Below, piece by piece: positions 38,840 through 60,476 of a stretch of DNA of 62,175 nt. Source of the DNA: Desulfovibrio sp. (GTDB lineage Bacteria; Desulfobacterota; Desulfovibrionia; Desulfovibrionales; Desulfovibrionaceae); assembly GCA_017450275.1 (NCBI GenBank), contig JAFSVD010000050.1, positions 1 to 62,175 on the forward strand, written 5' to 3'. Position 1 is the first letter of the stretch; each line of letters starts with the position of its first letter. The notes beneath the pieces were generated by a model. The model saw only the letters and a list, made by a program, of their open reading frames with translations, was not told the origin of the DNA and did not search any database. Position numbers and translations under genes: made by a program.

Positions 38840-40498
38840 ATGAGTCCATTCGTTCAAAAAGCGCTTGATAGTGTGAAAGCCTTCTACGGCGGCCTGAAAC
38901 TGTGGCAGCGCATAGCCCTTGGGGCTGGCATTGTTCTCGCTCTTGCCGCTCTCATCGGCTTCTCCCTCTATCTGAGCAGACCAGAGTATAAAGTTTTGTA
39001 TTCAAACCTGAGCGCTGAAGATGCCAGCAAGGTCGTCAAGGCGCTGCAGACCGACAAAGTCGCCTATCAATTGGCCGATAACGGGGCAACCATCCTTGTT
39101 CCCAAGGAAGTGGTCTACGATCAGCGCATTAAAATCGCGGGCGAAGGTGGGCTTGTTGGTCAGGGCATCGGCTTTGAAATTTTTGACAAGATCAAGGTCG
39201 GCCAGACCGATTTTGTGCAAAAAATCAATTATACACGAGCCCTCCAGGGCGAACTCGCGCGAACAATCAGCGAATTTCCTGGCGTTGAAAGCGCCAGAGT
39301 GCATTTAGTCATTCCGCAGCGATCCCTGTTTGTGGAAGACCAAAAATCCCCCTCTGCTTCGGTTGTTGTCAATTTGGCTGGTTCAAAGCATCTCGATCCC
39401 AAGGAGATCCAGGCGATCTTGAATCTTCTTGTGATGTCGGTGGAAGGCCTTGATAAGCAACATGTTTCGATGAGCGACAATTCGGGCAAGGTGCTCTATA
39501 AGCCCGAAGAAGACGATATGGCCGGTGCTTCTGCGACCCAGATGGAGCATCGTTTGCAGATGCAGCGCAATATCGAGCGCCGCATCGAGGAATTGCTGCA
39601 GCCCATTTTTGGGCCTGGACGCGTTATTGCCAAGGTCAATGTTGACCTTGATTACAGCCAAAAGACCATACGCCGTGAGATCTACGATCCCGAAAAGGTG
39701 GCTGTTCGAAGCGAGCAGCGCAGCGAAGAATCCCAGGAAGGCCGCGCCAATTTAGAGGCCGGAGCGCCTGATGCCAATTTCCGAGGCGATGGGATTACGG
39801 GGTCGGTATCGGATCAGTCCGGATCCCGTGAAACCCGCACAACCAACTACGAAATCAATAAAGAAGAACAGCATATTGTCTCCAATTCCGGCGATGTCCG
39901 CAGGCTGACCGTTGCGGTGGTCATCGATGGCACCTACAATAAGGTGGACGGAGCATGGCAATTTGTCCCGCGCAAAGAAGAAGAAATCAAACAAGTTCGG
40001 CAATTGGTCTCCAATGCCGTGGGGCTCGATGAGGCACGGGGGGATTCGTTGGAGGTCAGCTCCGCGCCGTTTACGGATTCTGAACCGCCGGCAGATCCCG
40101 ATGCCGCGGATTTGATGATCGAATACGCGGAACGTCTTGGCAAACCCTTGCTCAACGCGCTCCTGGGCTTTTTGTTCCTGATGCTGGTTGTCCGTCCCTT
40201 GATTTTGGCGCTTATCCGACCCAAGGTTGAGTCGGGCGAGGTCGTCGAAGGCCTGGAAGGGCTGCCCGCTGCTGAGGAGCAGCTGGCGCTCTACGAAGCC
40301 ATGGAAGAGGCCGCGACCAAGAGCGAAGAAGAAGAAAAGAAAGAGGAGGATGCGGACGGCATCGAAGAATTGTATTTCAAAGATATTGAGGCCTTGAAAG
40401 CCCATATCTTCACGCTTTCCGATAACCATATGGAGCAAGTAGTTTTGCTGCTGCGAGGTTGGATGAAGCAAGATGAAACTGCCAAAGCCAAAGTCTAA
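38840..40498 (+). CDS. fliF: Flagellar MS-ring protein FliF
   Basis: FliF forms the inner-membrane MS ring that anchors the motor. A first membrane helix (IALGAGIVLALAALIGFSLY, about 25-45) precedes the YscJ/FliF ring domain with YKVLYSNLSAEDASKVV, GGLVGQGIGFEIFD, YTRALQGELARTI and ARVHLVIPQRSLF. A second helix lies near residue 440 (LLGFLFLMLVVRPLIL). The acidic C-terminal tail ends in the FliG-binding helices (NHMEQVVLLLRGWM). The ATG at 38840 is supported by length (552 aa). The stop at 40498 is followed after 19 bases by a micro-gene with a similar tail. Confidence 0.96.
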   Translation: MSPFVQKALDSVKAFYGGLKLWQRIALGAGIVLALAALIGFSLYLSRPEYKVLYSNLSAEDASKVVKALQTDKVAYQLADNGATILVPKEVVYDQRIKIAGEGGLVGQGIGFEIFDKIKVGQTDFVQKINYTRALQGELARTISEFPGVESARVHLVIPQRSLFVEDQKSPSASVVVNLAGSKHLDPKEIQAILNLLVMSVEGLDKQHVSMSDNSGKVLYKPEEDDMAGASATQMEHRLQMQRNIERRIEELLQPIFGPGRVIAKVNVDLDYSQKTIRREIYDPEKVAVRSEQRSEESQEGRANLEAGAPDANFRGDGITGSVSDQSGSRETRTTNYEINKEEQHIVSNSGDVRRLTVAVVIDGTYNKVDGAWQFVPRKEEEIKQVRQLVSNAVGLDEARGDSLEVSSAPFTDSEPPADPDAADLMIEYAERLGKPLLNALLGFLFLMLVVRPLILALIRPKVESGEVVEGLEGLPAAEEQLALYEAMEEAATKSEEEEKKEEDADGIEELYFKDIEALKAHIFTLSDNHMEQVVLLLRGWMKQDETAKAKV

Positions 40499-40517
40499 CG
40501 GAAAAGAGAAGAAGGTG

Positions 40518-40694
40518 ATGACCCTACCTATCTACCATGTGGGGTCAATGAGTCTGGATGAGCTTCGGGCACAGCACCGCGAGCGGGTTGAGACCAATCG
40601 TCGTGTTGAAGAATTGAAACTTTCGCTGTTGCGGATAACCGAGCACAATATGGATCAGGCCGTGCGTCTTATTCGGAGATGGCTTAATTCGTAA
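40518..40694 (+). CDS. Micro-protein repeating the FliG-binding tail of FliF (58 aa)
   Basis: The last 30 residues (VEELKLSLLRITE, then HNMDQAVRLIRRWL) parallel the FliG-docking tail of FliF (IEALKAHIFTLSD, then NHMEQVVLLLRGWM): same length, same hydrophobic spacing, conserved Trp and M-D/E-Q. This is direct evidence from the two sequences. In other bacteria this helix pair of FliF inserts into the FliG N-terminal domain, so binding to FliG is inferred. The N-terminal half (YHVGSMSLDELRAQHRERV) is a charged helix with no membrane segment. The ATG at 40518 follows GAAGAAGGTG; a start at 40473 would overlap fliF by 26 bases. fliG follows after 83 bases. Confidence 0.78.
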   Translation: MTLPIYHVGSMSLDELRAQHRERVETNRRVEELKLSLLRITEHNMDQAVRLIRRWLNS

Positions 40695-40777
40695 GCGATG
40701 TATCTTTTTGCGTTGTGATCGTGATTCAAGGATTGCGGAGCAAGACCGCAGTCCTTATGCTATGAAGGAGACTATTG

Positions 40778-41773
40778 ATGGAACTCACCGGCCATCAACG
40801 CACTGCCGTTCTTTTACTCGCCATGGGGGACAAATTCACTGCTGATGTGTTTAAACGCATGGAACGACAGGAAATTGCGGATGTGAGCAAGGCGATTGTC
40901 GAGCTTGAACCCGTGCCCCGAGAAGTTGTTGAAGAGGTTTTGCGCGATTTCCATGAATCGCTGACCGAAGGCGTTGACATGATCAGCGGTGGAAGTGAGA
41001 CGGCAAAGCGTATGCTTGTCAAGAATCTCGATCCGGAAACCGCAAAATTTGTCATGGACTCGCTCAGTCTGGAAACCGGACAAGAGCCCTTCCGGGAACT
41101 TTCGCAGGCAAGCCCACGATTGCTTTCACAGATTCTTCGGAACGAACACCCCCAGACCTTGGCTTTGATTATGGGGCATCTGCCCTCTGATCAGGCTGCC
41201 AGTTTGTTGTCCAATCTCCCGGCAAGTGTTCGGGCAGAGGTCTTAACGCGTTTGGCAAAACTCGAGAGCGTGCCTGAAGAGATGCTCCTTGAAGTCGACA
41301 AAGTTTTGACCAGCCAGCTGATTGCCATGGGCGGCAAGGAAGGCAAGAAAGTGGGCGGCGTCCAGTCTGTTGCGGAGATTTTGAACGCGGTTGATCGGGC
41401 GACTGGTGAAGAAATTCTGACGGAAATTGAAGAAGATTCCACCCAAATGGCCGAAGACATCCGCAATCTGATGTTTGTCTTCGAAGATTGTAAATTTATT
41501 GACGATAAGGGCGTGCGTGAATTGCTGAAAAGCATATCCAACGAAGATTTGACCATGGCGCTCAAGGGCGCAACCGAAGAGCTGAAGGAGAAGTTCCTCT
41601 CCAATATGAGTGAACGCGCCGGCAACATGATTCGCGAGGAATTGGAATTCATGGGTCCCACAAAACTGAGCGATGTTGAAGCAGCGCAGCAAAACATTGT
41701 CAAAACCGTGCGGAAACTTGAGAGCGAAAACAAACTTGTCATCAGCCGTGGTGCTGGTGAGGTCTTTGTGTAG
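40778..41773 (+). CDS. fliG: Flagellar motor switch protein FliG
   Basis: FliG is the rotor protein that meets the stator and links the MS ring to FliM/FliN. The N-terminal domain (about 1-100) begins LTGHQRTAVLLLAMGDK. The middle domain has EHPQTLALIMGHLPSDQAASLLSNLP (the EHPQ motif), and the C-terminal domain has MFVFEDCKFIDDKGVRELLKSI with the charged torque helix (EELKEKFLSNMSERAGNMIREELE). At 331 residues it is normal. The ATG at 40778 has AAGGAG upstream. Confidence 0.97.
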   Translation: MELTGHQRTAVLLLAMGDKFTADVFKRMERQEIADVSKAIVELEPVPREVVEEVLRDFHESLTEGVDMISGGSETAKRMLVKNLDPETAKFVMDSLSLETGQEPFRELSQASPRLLSQILRNEHPQTLALIMGHLPSDQAASLLSNLPASVRAEVLTRLAKLESVPEEMLLEVDKVLTSQLIAMGGKEGKKVGGVQSVAEILNAVDRATGEEILTEIEEDSTQMAEDIRNLMFVFEDCKFIDDKGVRELLKSISNEDLTMALKGATEELKEKFLSNMSERAGNMIREELEFMGPTKLSDVEAAQQNIVKTVRKLESENKLVISRGAGEVFV

Positions 41774-49585: not shown

Positions 49586-49614
49586 TTGTTTCTATCATGA
49601 GAAGGGGAGCATCG

Positions 49615-51708
49615 ATGAAGTTTTGTATCAGACATGAGTTGTGCGGACTCAAAACACCCCATGATGGGAGGCTGCGTATACGCACGAGTACCCCTTTGCC
49701 AATCTTGGCGGCAGAGGATCTTGTCACAGCATTGTCCAAGATACCGGGTATACGCACTGTATCCGCCAATGCCCGTGTCGGATCCGTGCTCTTCTTCTAC
49801 GAGGATGCCCAAAGCCGTGAACAGGCCTTGCGTTTGTTGACAGAGAGCGCTGTTCCCACAGGCAAAGCCCTTCTCGGACGCCCCCTTCCTGCGCAGACAT
49901 CGAGTGGGCTCTTTCCGCTTTTCCGCTATCTTTGCATACGCCCCTTTCTCCCCATGCCCCTTCGCATCGCCTTGGCTGTGGTGGGGGCTATTCCCTTTCT
50001 CATCAAAGGCATAAGCACGCTTTTGCAGGGCAAATGCACGGTTGAGGTTTTGGATGCAGCCGCGATTACGGCCTCCTTGCTGCTTCGCGATTTCAATACC
50101 GTCTCCATGCTGACGCTTCTTTTGGGACTGGGCGACACCCTTTCTGAATGGACCAGGAAGCATTCCATCGATTCGTTGACAGAAAGCCTGACGATTACGG
50201 TGCAAAGCGTCTGGCAAAAAGTCGACGGCACAGAGATTCAAACCCCGCTTTCTGCCATTCGAGAAGGGGATTTGGTGGTTGTTCGCTCAGGCTCTTCCAT
50301 TCCTGTTGATGGCATTGTGGTGGAGGGTCTTGGTGTTGTAAACCAGGCCTCGATGACAGGGGAACCCATTGGGGTGAAGCGGGAAGCAGGCGGTGCTGTT
50401 TTTGCCGGCACTGTTGTCGAGGAAGGGGAGATCGTGATCAAGGTCACCAAGGTTGGGGATGCAACACGCTTTCGCCAAGTGGCGGCCTTTATCGAGGAGT
50501 CAGAGGCGCTCAAAGCGGGTATACAGGGACGCAGCGAACGCATGGCCGATATTGCGGTGCCCTTTACCTTTCTCCTCGCGGGTCTTGTCTATCTTGTGAC
50601 CCGGAATTGTATGCGGGCTGCTTCGGTGCTTCTGGTCGACTATTCGTGCGCCCTGAAATTGGCAACGCCCTTGGCTGTGCTCACAGCCATGCGGGAAGGA
50701 ACGCAGAGGGGGGTGGTGATTAAAGGGGGGCGTTATCTTGAAGCGTTGAGCGACGCTGACACCATTGTCTTTGATAAAACAGGCACCTTGACCAATGCAA
50801 CGCCGGTTGTTGCTGATGTCATTCCCTGTGAGGGCTATGATTCTCGAGAAATTTTGCGCACCATGGCCTGTCTTGAAGAGCATTTCCCCCATCCTGTTGC
50901 TCGCGCTGTGGTCAAAAAAGCCCAGGAAGAAGATCTGATTCACGAGGAAGAACACGCCAATGTGGAATACATTGTGGCCCATGGCATCGCTTCTTCGCTC
51001 CATGGCAAGCGTTTGCTTGTTGGCAGCAGACATTACATCGAAAACGATGAACACGTGGATGTCTCGTGCTTACGCTCCTCCATCATCGCGCAATCCAATT
51101 TAGGGCGATCGCTGCTCTATATGGCTGAAGATGGCAAGCTCGTGGGCATGCTCGCTATCGAAGATCCGCTCAGAAGCGAAGCACGTTCGGTTATAAGCGC
51201 CTTGCGCGGCGCTGGCTTCAAACGGATTGTCATGCTCACAGGCGATGATGAGCGGACAGCCAAAGCCATTGCGCAATCCGCTGGTATTACGGAATACCAT
51301 TCCCAGATTTTGCCAACCGACAAGGCAAGCATTGTCCATGCCATGGAAGAAGAAGGGTGGAAGGTGTGCATGGTTGGCGATGGGATCAACGATGCCCCGG
51401 CTTTGTCCTCATCCCTTGTCGGCATTGCCATGAGCGATGGCACGGATTTGGCGAGAGAAGTGGCCAATGTCTTGCTCACCAAGCCCGATCTTCGCGGCAT
51501 TCTCGCTGCCAGGCATTTGGCCAAATCGACCATGCAGCGTATCCATGTGAACTTTGTCGCAACCATCCTTTTAAACAGCCTCTTTTTGGCAGGTGGCCTC
51601 TTCAATATCCTTCCGGCTGCAACGTCAGCTGTGCTCCATAATTGCACAACCTTGGCTATTGCCTTAAATGCCATGCGCCCCCACAGCCAATGGAAAGATT
51701 CGGAATAG
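49615..51708 (+). CDS. P1B-type heavy-metal ATPase with SCALK membrane motif (copy 1)
   Basis: P-type ATPase of the heavy-metal class. The N-terminal 90 residues are an HMA-like fold without CxxC. Marks are the TGEP loop (MTGEPIGVK, about 262), the phosphorylation site DKTGTLTN (about 390), the P1B-specific HFPHPVARAV (about 425), MLTGDDERTAKAIA and VGDGINDAPAL. The metal-site motif in the membrane helix is YSCALKLATP instead of CPC/SPC, so substrate cannot be predicted. The C terminus has a pair of helices ending NAMRPH. The ATG at 49615 has AGGGGAG upstream. A paralogue lies at 58.3 kb. Confidence 0.9.
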   Translation: MKFCIRHELCGLKTPHDGRLRIRTSTPLPILAAEDLVTALSKIPGIRTVSANARVGSVLFFYEDAQSREQALRLLTESAVPTGKALLGRPLPAQTSSGLFPLFRYLCIRPFLPMPLRIALAVVGAIPFLIKGISTLLQGKCTVEVLDAAAITASLLLRDFNTVSMLTLLLGLGDTLSEWTRKHSIDSLTESLTITVQSVWQKVDGTEIQTPLSAIREGDLVVVRSGSSIPVDGIVVEGLGVVNQASMTGEPIGVKREAGGAVFAGTVVEEGEIVIKVTKVGDATRFRQVAAFIEESEALKAGIQGRSERMADIAVPFTFLLAGLVYLVTRNCMRAASVLLVDYSCALKLATPLAVLTAMREGTQRGVVIKGGRYLEALSDADTIVFDKTGTLTNATPVVADVIPCEGYDSREILRTMACLEEHFPHPVARAVVKKAQEEDLIHEEEHANVEYIVAHGIASSLHGKRLLVGSRHYIENDEHVDVSCLRSSIIAQSNLGRSLLYMAEDGKLVGMLAIEDPLRSEARSVISALRGAGFKRIVMLTGDDERTAKAIAQSAGITEYHSQILPTDKASIVHAMEEEGWKVCMVGDGINDAPALSSSLVGIAMSDGTDLAREVANVLLTKPDLRGILAARHLAKSTMQRIHVNFVATILLNSLFLAGGLFNILPAATSAVLHNCTTLAIALNAMRPHSQWKDSE

Positions 51709-57916: not shown

Positions 57917-58340
57917 ATGCGCATCCTTACACTGAGGTTGATATCGCTGACAACTGCGCCCCTAAAGCTATCTGGAGTATATCCAAGGGGCAGGCTCGGA
58001 AGAGAGGGGGGCGCGGTCACGGCGAGGATCTCACGACAAAGAAAAAGCAAGCGGCTTTGCGGGGGACGGCGGTTTGCAAAGAAGACAGAATGCCTTGAGG
58101 GGATATTCAAACGTCTTTGGTAGCAATCTTTGACGGGATACGTCAACACATTGCTCTTCGCCTATGAAGCCGTATTGCGATTGCGGGGGGAGGCTATGCT
58201 TGATTTTTGTATATTTCCTCGTTAAAAAGGACTTTCATTTTCAAGAAAAGAGCAAAACATATGGCAGTGGGCAACGAACAGCGATATTGTAGTCATTCCT
58301 CTTGTCTTTTCAAGCGAAAGAGCCGAGTATAGAAGAGAAA
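57917..58340. other. Divergent intergenic region between sctW and the second ATPase, 424 bp
   Basis: No gene is seen. It must hold promoters for both the type III operon and the ATPase. It contains the palindrome TTGACG-GGATA-CGTCAA at 58130-58146 and a T-rich stretch at 58200-58260. No clear sigma-54 site is present. Confidence 0.5.
58130..58146. promoter_or_regulatory. 17-bp palindrome TTGACG-N5-CGTCAA
   Basis: Perfect six-base arms with a five-base spacer, about 215 bases upstream of sctW and 195 bases upstream of the ATPase gene. A good candidate operator for the divergent pair. Confidence 0.45.
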
Positions 58341-60476
58341 ATGGAGCAGCTTATGCGTTTTTTTCGTGTTCATGAGATTGAACCTGTTGGCCAGGCCTGG
58401 GGGCGGATGCGTTTGCGCAGCTCGGAGGCAATGAGCGTGTGTGGGGCAGAAGCCGTGCAGAAGGCCATGGCCGGTCTTGCCAATATCCGTGATGTGCGCG
58501 TGAATCCTTTGGTTGGCAGTGTCCTTTTTTTCTATGCGGACGCTCAAGCCCGTATCGACGCTTTGACGATGCTTGTCGATCTCGCCAAGAACAATATTCC
58601 GTGCCAGGAACCCGCGCCGGGTGATACACGGCGGCCTGTTGAGCAAGCAAGCGTCGCAGGATTTATGCCGCTTCTGCGCTATATCTTTATTCGTCCCCTG
58701 CTCCCTCCGTGGATTCGGATCGCTATGGCTGTGGTTGGCAGCGTGCCTTTTCTCGTTAAGGGCATTACCGCTCTTGCTCGGGGCAAGCTCTCTGTGGAAG
58801 TCTTGGATGCTGCGGCTATCACCGCGTCGCTCCTTTTGAAGGATTTCCCCACCGTGAGCACGCTCACCCTGCTCTTGGGGCTCGGCGAGACCATCGAGGA
58901 GATGACGCGTCAAAGTTCGCTCGCTTCCCTGGCTGACAGTTTGGCCACCCATATTGAGACTGTCTGGGTGCTGCGCAACGGCTGCGAAGTTTCCGTCCCC
59001 ATAGCCCAAGTGCACGAAGGCGATGCGGTGGTGGTGCTTGCGGGAAGCTCTATTCCGGTTGACGGCACTGTGATTGAGGGAGAAGGGCTGGTCAATCAGG
59101 CCTCGATGACCGGCGAACCCTTGGGGGTGCAACGCAGTCAAGGGGAATCGGTCTTTGCCGGTACGGTCTTGGAAGAAGGGCGGATTGTCGTCTCTGCGCA
59201 GCATGTGGGGGAGAGCACCCGTTTGCAGCAGGTGGTGAAATTTATCGAAGAATCCGAGGTGCTCAAGGCAGGCATCCAAGGGAAATTCGAGCGCATGGCC
59301 GATTATGCTGTGCCTGTGACCTTTCTTTTGGCGATTGTCGTCTATTGCGTGACCCGCAATTTCCGCCGCGCAGCCTCGGTTTTGTTGGTGGATTATTCGT
59401 GCGCTCTGAAGCTTGCAACCCCTCTGGCTGTTCTTTCGGCGATGCGTGAGGCAGCCCATCATGGTCTTGTGATCAAGGGCGGGCGGTATCTGGAGGCCTT
59501 GCAAGAGGCCGATACCTTGGTGATGGATAAGACCGGAACCCTCACCCAGGCCAATCCCGTGGTGGGCGAGGTCTTTCCTGCACCTGGCTATAAGAGAGAA
59601 GATGTGCTCAGAATGATGGCTTGTCTTGAAGAGCACTTCCCGCATCCGGTGGCCAGAGCAGTTGTCCACAGAGCGGAAGAAGAAAAGCTGCAGCACGCCG
59701 AAAAACACGCCCATGCCCAGTATGTGGTTGCCCATGGGGTCACCGCCATGCAAAACGGCAAGAAGCTCTGTGTGGGCAGCAGACATTTTGTGGAGCAGGA
59801 TGAAGGGGTTGATCTTTCGCCCCTCGATGCCGAGATACGCCAGGAATCCGAACGCGGTCGTTCGCTGCTCTTTTTGAGCGAAGACAATTGTGCGGCGGGT
59901 CTTGTCTCCATCGAAGACCCGGTGCGTCCGGAATCTGCCAGGGTGATCGCCGCCATGCGGGATCTTGGGATCCATCGCATTGTCATGTTGACCGGTGACG
60001 ATGCACGGACAGCCAAGGCTGTTGCCACACGCTTGGGGATCGATGAATTCCGTGCCCAGGTGCTTCCGCAGGATAAGGCAACGGTTGTACAAGAATTGAC
60101 CGACCAGGGATGTAAGGTGATGATGGTGGGCGATGGGATCAATGACGCGCCGGCGCTCTCCTGCGCCCATGTCGGTGTGGCCATGAGTGACGGCACCGAT
60201 CTCGCCCGCGAGGTCGCCAATGTCCAGCTGACCAATCCCTCTCTGGAAAGCTTGGTGGCAGCCCGTATCTTAGGCCAGCGAACCTTGGCAACCATCCACC
60301 ATAATTTTGTGATCACCATGGTGGCTAATACCCTCTTTCTTGCCGGCGGCTTGGCCATGATTTTAAGCCCTGGGCTTTCTGCGCTTTTGCACAATATGAC
60401 AACGCTTGCCGTGTCGTTGAACGCCATGCGCCCGCACCTTGGAAGCGGCGACCATGGAGCGATTTCATTGTCGTGA
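58341..60476 (+). CDS. P1B-type heavy-metal ATPase with SCALK membrane motif (copy 2)
   Basis: The same architecture as the ATPase at 49.6 kb: HMA-like N-terminal fold without CxxC (MRLRSSEAMSVCG, then VNPLVGSVLFFYAD), MTGEPLGVQ, DKTGTLTQ, HFPHPVARAV, MLTGDDARTAKAVA and VGDGINDAPALSCAHVG. The metal-site helix reads YSCALKLATP. The final helices end NAMRPHLGSGD. It is about 711 residues long; the ATG at 58341 or at 58353 could be used. It is closely related to copy 1 along the whole length but diverged, so it is an old duplication or separate acquisition. It is divergent from sctW. Confidence 0.9.
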   Translation: MEQLMRFFRVHEIEPVGQAWGRMRLRSSEAMSVCGAEAVQKAMAGLANIRDVRVNPLVGSVLFFYADAQARIDALTMLVDLAKNNIPCQEPAPGDTRRPVEQASVAGFMPLLRYIFIRPLLPPWIRIAMAVVGSVPFLVKGITALARGKLSVEVLDAAAITASLLLKDFPTVSTLTLLLGLGETIEEMTRQSSLASLADSLATHIETVWVLRNGCEVSVPIAQVHEGDAVVVLAGSSIPVDGTVIEGEGLVNQASMTGEPLGVQRSQGESVFAGTVLEEGRIVVSAQHVGESTRLQQVVKFIEESEVLKAGIQGKFERMADYAVPVTFLLAIVVYCVTRNFRRAASVLLVDYSCALKLATPLAVLSAMREAAHHGLVIKGGRYLEALQEADTLVMDKTGTLTQANPVVGEVFPAPGYKREDVLRMMACLEEHFPHPVARAVVHRAEEEKLQHAEKHAHAQYVVAHGVTAMQNGKKLCVGSRHFVEQDEGVDLSPLDAEIRQESERGRSLLFLSEDNCAAGLVSIEDPVRPESARVIAAMRDLGIHRIVMLTGDDARTAKAVATRLGIDEFRAQVLPQDKATVVQELTDQGCKVMMVGDGINDAPALSCAHVGVAMSDGTDLAREVANVQLTNPSLESLVAARILGQRTLATIHHNFVITMVANTLFLAGGLAMILSPGLSALLHNMTTLAVSLNAMRPHLGSGDHGAISLS

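Follow-up and report, generated by a model that had tools for sequence, protein, structure and literature searches.

A small gene next to fliF in Desulfovibrio and three other genera encodes a protein homologous to the FliG-binding tail of FliF

Introduction

Why would a bacterium whose MS-ring protein FliF retains its FliG-binding tail also encode what looks like a second, separate copy of that tail? The question is raised by a flagellar locus of Desulfovibrio sp. (assembly GCA_017450275.1, contig JAFSVD010000050.1), of which a stretch of 62,175 nucleotides, referred to here as the window, was analysed. In the window, fliF (38840..40498, +; 552 aa; TIGR00206 E = 1.6e-95, PF01514, PF08345) is followed by fliG (40778..41773, +; TIGR00207 E = 8.1e-90), and an earlier note, made from the sequence alone, had drawn attention to an open frame of 58 codons between them (40518-40694, +), suggesting that it duplicates the tail by which FliF binds FliG. 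According to the relevant sections of PMC6079021 and PMC7355467, the N-terminal domain of FliG (FliG_N) and the C-terminal 36-46 residues of FliF co-fold, and the latter source states that this joint is said to ensure equal subunit numbers in the MS and C rings, newer maps being in agreement with such matching. For Salmonella, the portion of PMC11087270 that deals with ring counts describes 33-mer MS rings in 58% of the 34-mer C rings examined and calls the stoichiometry unsettled; in the corresponding part of PMC11481574, 34 FliF are taken as native.

Results

Resemblance of the small protein to the FliF tail

The 58-aa frame matches no Pfam or NCBIfam family at E-values up to 10, and the ring domains YscJ_FliF and YscJ_FliF_C are absent from it. 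The gapless alignment of roughly its last 30 residues with the FliF tail, on which the earlier note relied, is indeed present, but this pairwise match to the FliF of the window is weak (30% identity over 30 residues, E = 0.15 in a whole-genome search) and by itself no proof of homology. The decisive comparison comes from a profile of 37 outgroup FliF tails, taken from genera without the small gene (43 sequences, of which L047, L049, L108, L121, L134 and L135 were dropped). Among the 1635 frames of the window, this profile ranks the small frame first, with 46.3 bits, E = 2.5e-13 and a match covering 45 residues, followed by FliF itself (E = 2.2e-8) and, far behind, by a third frame (E = 0.13), whereas the best of 20,000 shuffles reached 12.4 bits. 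Duplication of the FliG-binding tail is thus borne out. The second-ranked match corresponds to the tail of FliF DIEALKAHIFTLSDNHMEQVVLLLRGWMK, which is retained at 40382..40468 (+), and the reverse profile, built from 51 small proteins, recovers it at E = 1.0e-7. In a comparison of 52 loci, the small protein scores better against the outgroup profile than the FliF tail of its own genome in 37, and the own FliF scores better in the other 15.

The matching part of the small protein is a conserved core RVEELKLSLLRITEHNMDQAVRLIRRWLNS (40602..40691, +), in which two helices around TEHN are expected by analogy. When small proteins, their own FliF and outgroup FliF are anchored on a tryptophan near the end, 30 columns align without gaps, and all three sets share their most frequent residue at -24 (E), -21 (K), -8 (Q) and -6 (V) (the outgroup set of 43 here included the broken L047 and L049, which is from Desulfovibrio; L050, having no W, was left out). 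The tryptophan is missing from one of the 49 Desulfovibrio loci, L050, and present in the other 48. At some conserved positions, the core has residues unlike those of FliF tails. Searching the PDB by sequence, with the small protein as well as with two profiles, returned chance-level matches only, and a solved FliF tail was not recovered even by the FliF-tail profile.

The core is preceded by an N-terminal arm (40473..40601, +) of variable length and sequence. The 20 residues immediately ahead of the core are basic, with a median net charge of +2 (0 to 4), as opposed to -7 for the same segment of the own FliF; outgroup FliF proteins have -6.5 (26 of 43 rows measured).

Start codon, translation and surroundings of the small gene

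The frame pointed out by the earlier note exists, but its start at 40518 is probably wrong. The 49 Desulfovibrio loci come from as many genomes and were all fetched through their match to the small gene. In each of them, the first in-frame ATG lies within the end of fliF, overlapping it by 14-32 nt: 20 nt in 32 loci, 23 in 11, 14 and 17 in two each, 26 in one (the window) and 32 in one. A second in-frame ATG ahead of the core occurs in only four of the 49. The small gene therefore probably starts at ATG 40473 and extends over 40473..40694 (+; stop codon 40692-40694), encoding 73 aa in the +1 frame relative to fliF with a 26 nt overlap. A later start is possible, and some in-frame ATG, GTG or TTG precedes the core in 37 of 49 loci. 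The fliF codon over the ATG is GAT, AAT or TAT, as an ATG at this place requires. Since just 41.6% of Asp/Asn codons in the same fliF genes end in AT, the overlapping ATG is seen more often than codon use alone would give, with the caveat that related loci are not independent.

As a group, small genes have a weak ribosome site (median -3.6 kcal/mol, compared to -3.0 for a control inside fliF and -8.3 for fliG), that of the window being somewhat better than the group median (-6.3 kcal/mol). Translation of the small gene may depend on that of fliF. Scanning 40300-40900 revealed no promoter and, on the plus strand, no terminator-like site; the minus strand has two such sites, which lie inside fliF. 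Between the small gene and fliG there is a hairpin (40728..40756, +) of 11 pairs, one of them G-U, without a terminator-like tail; the predicted fold of 40690-40780, which contains it, has -27.1 kcal/mol (z = -2.2). Elsewhere in the window, two similar large proteins (49597-51708 and 58302-60476), by eye only resembling P-type metal ATPases, are encoded about 6.6 kb apart, with apparent flagellar export genes (again by eye) between them.

Selection on the two copies of the tail

For the region after the fliF overlap, the median dN/dS is 0.31 (193 of 1176 pairs with usable synonymous divergence). It falls to 0.20 in the core (247 pairs), which sits past the fliF stop codon, so that the frame is not open merely through its overlap with fliF. 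The core is under purifying selection. In the linker, where the alignment is unsure, dN/dS is about 1.0 (291 pairs). Both other frames of the stretch are interrupted by stop codons, in 48 and 44 of the 49 loci, respectively. Over 48 loci, pN/pS amounts to 0.23 in the core, 0.12 in the FliF tail and 0.19 in FliG residues 2-100, and the corresponding values for 157 close pairs are 0.15, 0.10 and 0.12. The low values for both the core and the FliF tail indicate that both copies are maintained. Replacement of the FliF tail by the small protein is not favoured, FliF's own tail being the more constrained of the two.

Distribution, origin and linkage to fliF

The earlier note had proposed looking for homologs at the fliF-fliG junction of relatives, and these were found: in each of the 49 Desulfovibrio loci that were fetched, and in G146 as well, the small gene sits after fliF and before fliG, with a 29 nt overlap with fliF in G146. 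Among 61 Desulfovibrio genomes searched, the source genome included, 44 have the short frame. The remaining 17 comprise G004 (FliF tail only, near a contig end), G035 (decayed locus) and 15 genomes without a match. A named collection returned 38 loci, 36 of them with the small gene; of the other two, L096 has decayed, and L097 is the FliF tail of an outgroup. Titles in this collection are nearly all Desulfovibrio or Desulfovibrionaceae, several coming from goat, sheep or water-buffalo rumen or goat cecum. In Candidatus Desulfovibrio kirbyi (L048:1447-2484, L096:4935-5946) fliF was not found, and a FliF-like start (by eye) runs in frame into the small-gene end and on into fliG, as in a decaying flagellar locus.

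Beyond Desulfovibrio, the small gene is present in three genera, namely, g22 (G146, G190), g55 (G139, G166, G185) and g57 (G141, G187, G248). G248 (L195) is filed under g57 and G190 (L196) under g22, yet their FliF proteins hardly differ, pointing to a mislabelled or mixed assembly. An order-level search (150 genomes, 109 matching, every match up to E = 0.01 listed) yielded a single short frame outside the four genera, that of G317 (60 aa), a broken FliF from an assembly of 43% completeness. Likewise, a short frame of G247 (83 aa) lies inside a FliF interrupted by unread bases. At the family and class levels, the absence of the small gene holds among the best matches, which were the ones listed. 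Of 38 outgroup junctions with both genes (fliG starts extrapolated, the gap of L047 left out), 36 have a fliF-fliG gap of -11 to 48 nt, and L135 and L103 have gaps of 92 and 133 nt, respectively.

A phylogenetic tree was built from 66 FliF sequences, 46 from non-carriers and 20 from carriers (12 out of the set of 49 Desulfovibrio, eight from the other genera). In it, the 20 carriers fall into one group (100/99), recovered in all of 200 bootstrap trees. Because of this grouping, a single origin is the simplest reading, and it is likely that the small gene arose when the 3′ end of fliF was duplicated, once, in the ancestor shared by the four genera. With the profile, shuffles, selection and distribution taken together, a chance resemblance to the FliF tail is rejected.

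Six g55 and g57 genomes in which fliG lies elsewhere reveal which neighbor the small gene accompanies. In G139, a single contig, fliG is more than 1 Mb away from fliF, and in G141, G166, G185, G187 and G248 it is on a different contig. In five of the six the small gene follows fliF at about 3 to 300 nt, which argues that it goes with fliF and not with fliG; in the sixth, G187, one contig breaks off close behind fliF and another begins close ahead of the small gene, an arrangement compatible with adjacency. As the small gene does not overlap fliF in g55 and g57, the overlap is not universal. What comes after the small gene differs among the genomes of these two genera (L043, L044, L045, L046, L194, L195).

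Co-occurrence with FliG_N

In the source genome (~74% complete), fliG is the only gene matched by FliG_N (PF14842); its N-terminal domain (40781-41092, +; 99.4 bits) is the expected partner of the small protein. Of the eight carriers from other genera, G190 has no match to FliG_N, and the remaining seven reach 87-102 bits. The Desulfovibrio genomes without a small-gene match number 17 when G299 and G312 are added to the 15 of the 61-genome search, and some of these assemblies are incomplete; FliG_N has no match in 11 of them and scores 21.6-67 bits in six. None thus exceeds 67 bits, which we count in favor of a FliG-linked role. With respect to the two remaining non-carriers, G035 retains FliG_N (94 bits), and G004 (63% completeness) has none.

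A divergent FliG_N gene (54.6-67 bits) was observed in Desulfovibrio without canonical fliG, at L201 (1000-1998 and 1989-3038, both on the minus strand) and also in G006, G050 and G057, the Pfam check having been made for G057 and G006. In G312, a 349-aa gene, FliF-like by eye and ending VALLRHWLTQEDT..., precedes the divergent FliG_N gene; this pair is possibly a relict or non-flagellar one.

Discussion

Our preferred answer, to which we assign a probability of roughly 0.6, is that the small protein acts as a soluble FliF tail that would co-fold with FliG_N and occupy, lastingly or briefly, those FliG_N domains that have no FliF partner. Binding to FliG_N is inferred from homology and from the published structures of the FliF tail with FliG_N. 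The roles put forward in the earlier note, namely, capping FliG before assembly, competing with FliF or filling mismatched sites in the ring, would all require such binding. What best fits a soluble tail that accompanies fliF is an occupant of FliG_N untied to the membrane ring. In the proposed scenario, the fliF 3′ end was duplicated, probably once, to give a small separate gene, a step that sequence and tree support. Its product, judging from sequence, would consist of a flexible basic arm and a FliF tail, devoid of ring and membrane domains. It would be expressed together with fliF, from a start inside fliF in Desulfovibrio and G146 and from a few to ~300 nt after fliF in g55 and g57, the presumed coupling being read from this arrangement, and would then occupy FliG_N lacking a FliF partner in a lasting or a brief way. 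Several observations count against such a role: the weak ribosome site, the differences in the core, the opposite charge before it, the missing tryptophan of L050, the better score of the own FliF in 15 of 52 loci, and the loss of the overlap in g55 and g57.

If the occupancy were lasting, the FliG copies of the C ring could outnumber the FliF copies of the MS ring, a possibility that we regard as tentative. That the free tail is a permanent rotor part uncoupling C-ring size from MS-ring size, such that FliG and FliF copy numbers need not match in this clade, seems to us somewhat less likely still. Against the idea of mismatch, FliF and C-ring numbers are held to match at 33-34 or 34 in the relevant sections of PMC7355467 and PMC11481574. 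We know of no ring counts for the genera considered here.

The brief form of the same explanation, and part of it, is an assembly chaperone that would hold new FliG_N in the co-folded state until displaced by FliF and would be absent from the finished motor. We consider this unlikely but worth keeping in view: FliG_N changes fold upon binding the FliF tail, as described in parts of PMC6079021 and PMC7355467, and a ribosome site as weak as this one points to low amounts of the product, yet a chaperone of FliG would be expected to be encoded beside fliG, and it is fliF that the small gene follows in five of the six genomes with fliG elsewhere.

Alternatively, the small protein might be a bridge or regulator, its basic arm resting on the acidic cytoplasmic segment of FliF (or on the membrane) and its core on FliG, and so adjust switching or torque coupling. 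The reversed charge ahead of the core and the linkage to fliF are in line with this reading, but it is made improbable by the variable length of the arm and its dN/dS near 1, and by the fact that the FliF segment is about as acidic in outgroups, which do without the small gene. Even more doubtful is the proposal that the protein now binds another partner and no longer FliG; the positions at which the core departs from FliF tails would allow it, but the shared tail columns are kept, and the 17 Desulfovibrio genomes without a canonical FliG_N match have no small-gene match either. A leftover duplicate or chance open frame, with the weak ribosome site in its favor, is highly improbable given constraint on a core beyond the fliF stop, stop codons in the other frames and presence in four genera.

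For the occupant of FliG_N that we favor, the significance is that a free FliF tail under selection across a clade would provide a direct handle on the unsettled matching of MS and C rings. By removing or adding one protein of 73 aa, it could be asked whether vacant FliG sites are present and whether they matter for assembly, torque and switching. The protein may be useful, too, as a natural soluble FliG_N ligand, and the rotors of these bacteria may be built with, or helped by, an extra untethered part.

The small protein is a partial paralog of a known motor part. The earlier note knew of no described component of this kind, and we likewise found no precedent for the arrangement in the full-text literature searched, a scope beyond which most subscription papers lie. 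Its closest relative is the C-terminal tail of FliF (PDB 5TDY, named in the section of PMC6079021 concerned), to which the core is homologous over 45 residues, with a near-invariant tryptophan in common. It differs from that tail in being a separate protein of 73 aa that lacks ring and membrane domains, in having a basic segment ahead of the core where FliF has an acidic one, and in coexisting with a FliF whose own tail is retained. FlgV of Helicobacter pylori, which in the part of PMC10655999 describing it forms a ring near the MS ring and FliG_N, is likewise a lineage-specific accessory, and the small protein is expected at the same MS-ring/FliG_N junction. However, flgV adjoins flhF-flhG, whereas the small gene is flanked by fliF and fliG at every one of the 49 Desulfovibrio loci fetched. 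FlgV is described as having two membrane helices; in the small protein no long hydrophobic stretch is apparent by eye, and its net charge is positive. Finally, FliF-FliG fusions of laboratory strains, as presented in sections of PMC6079021 and PMC11481574, also alter the link between the FliF tail and FliG, but a fusion forces 1:1 tethering, whereas the small gene would supply the tail untethered.
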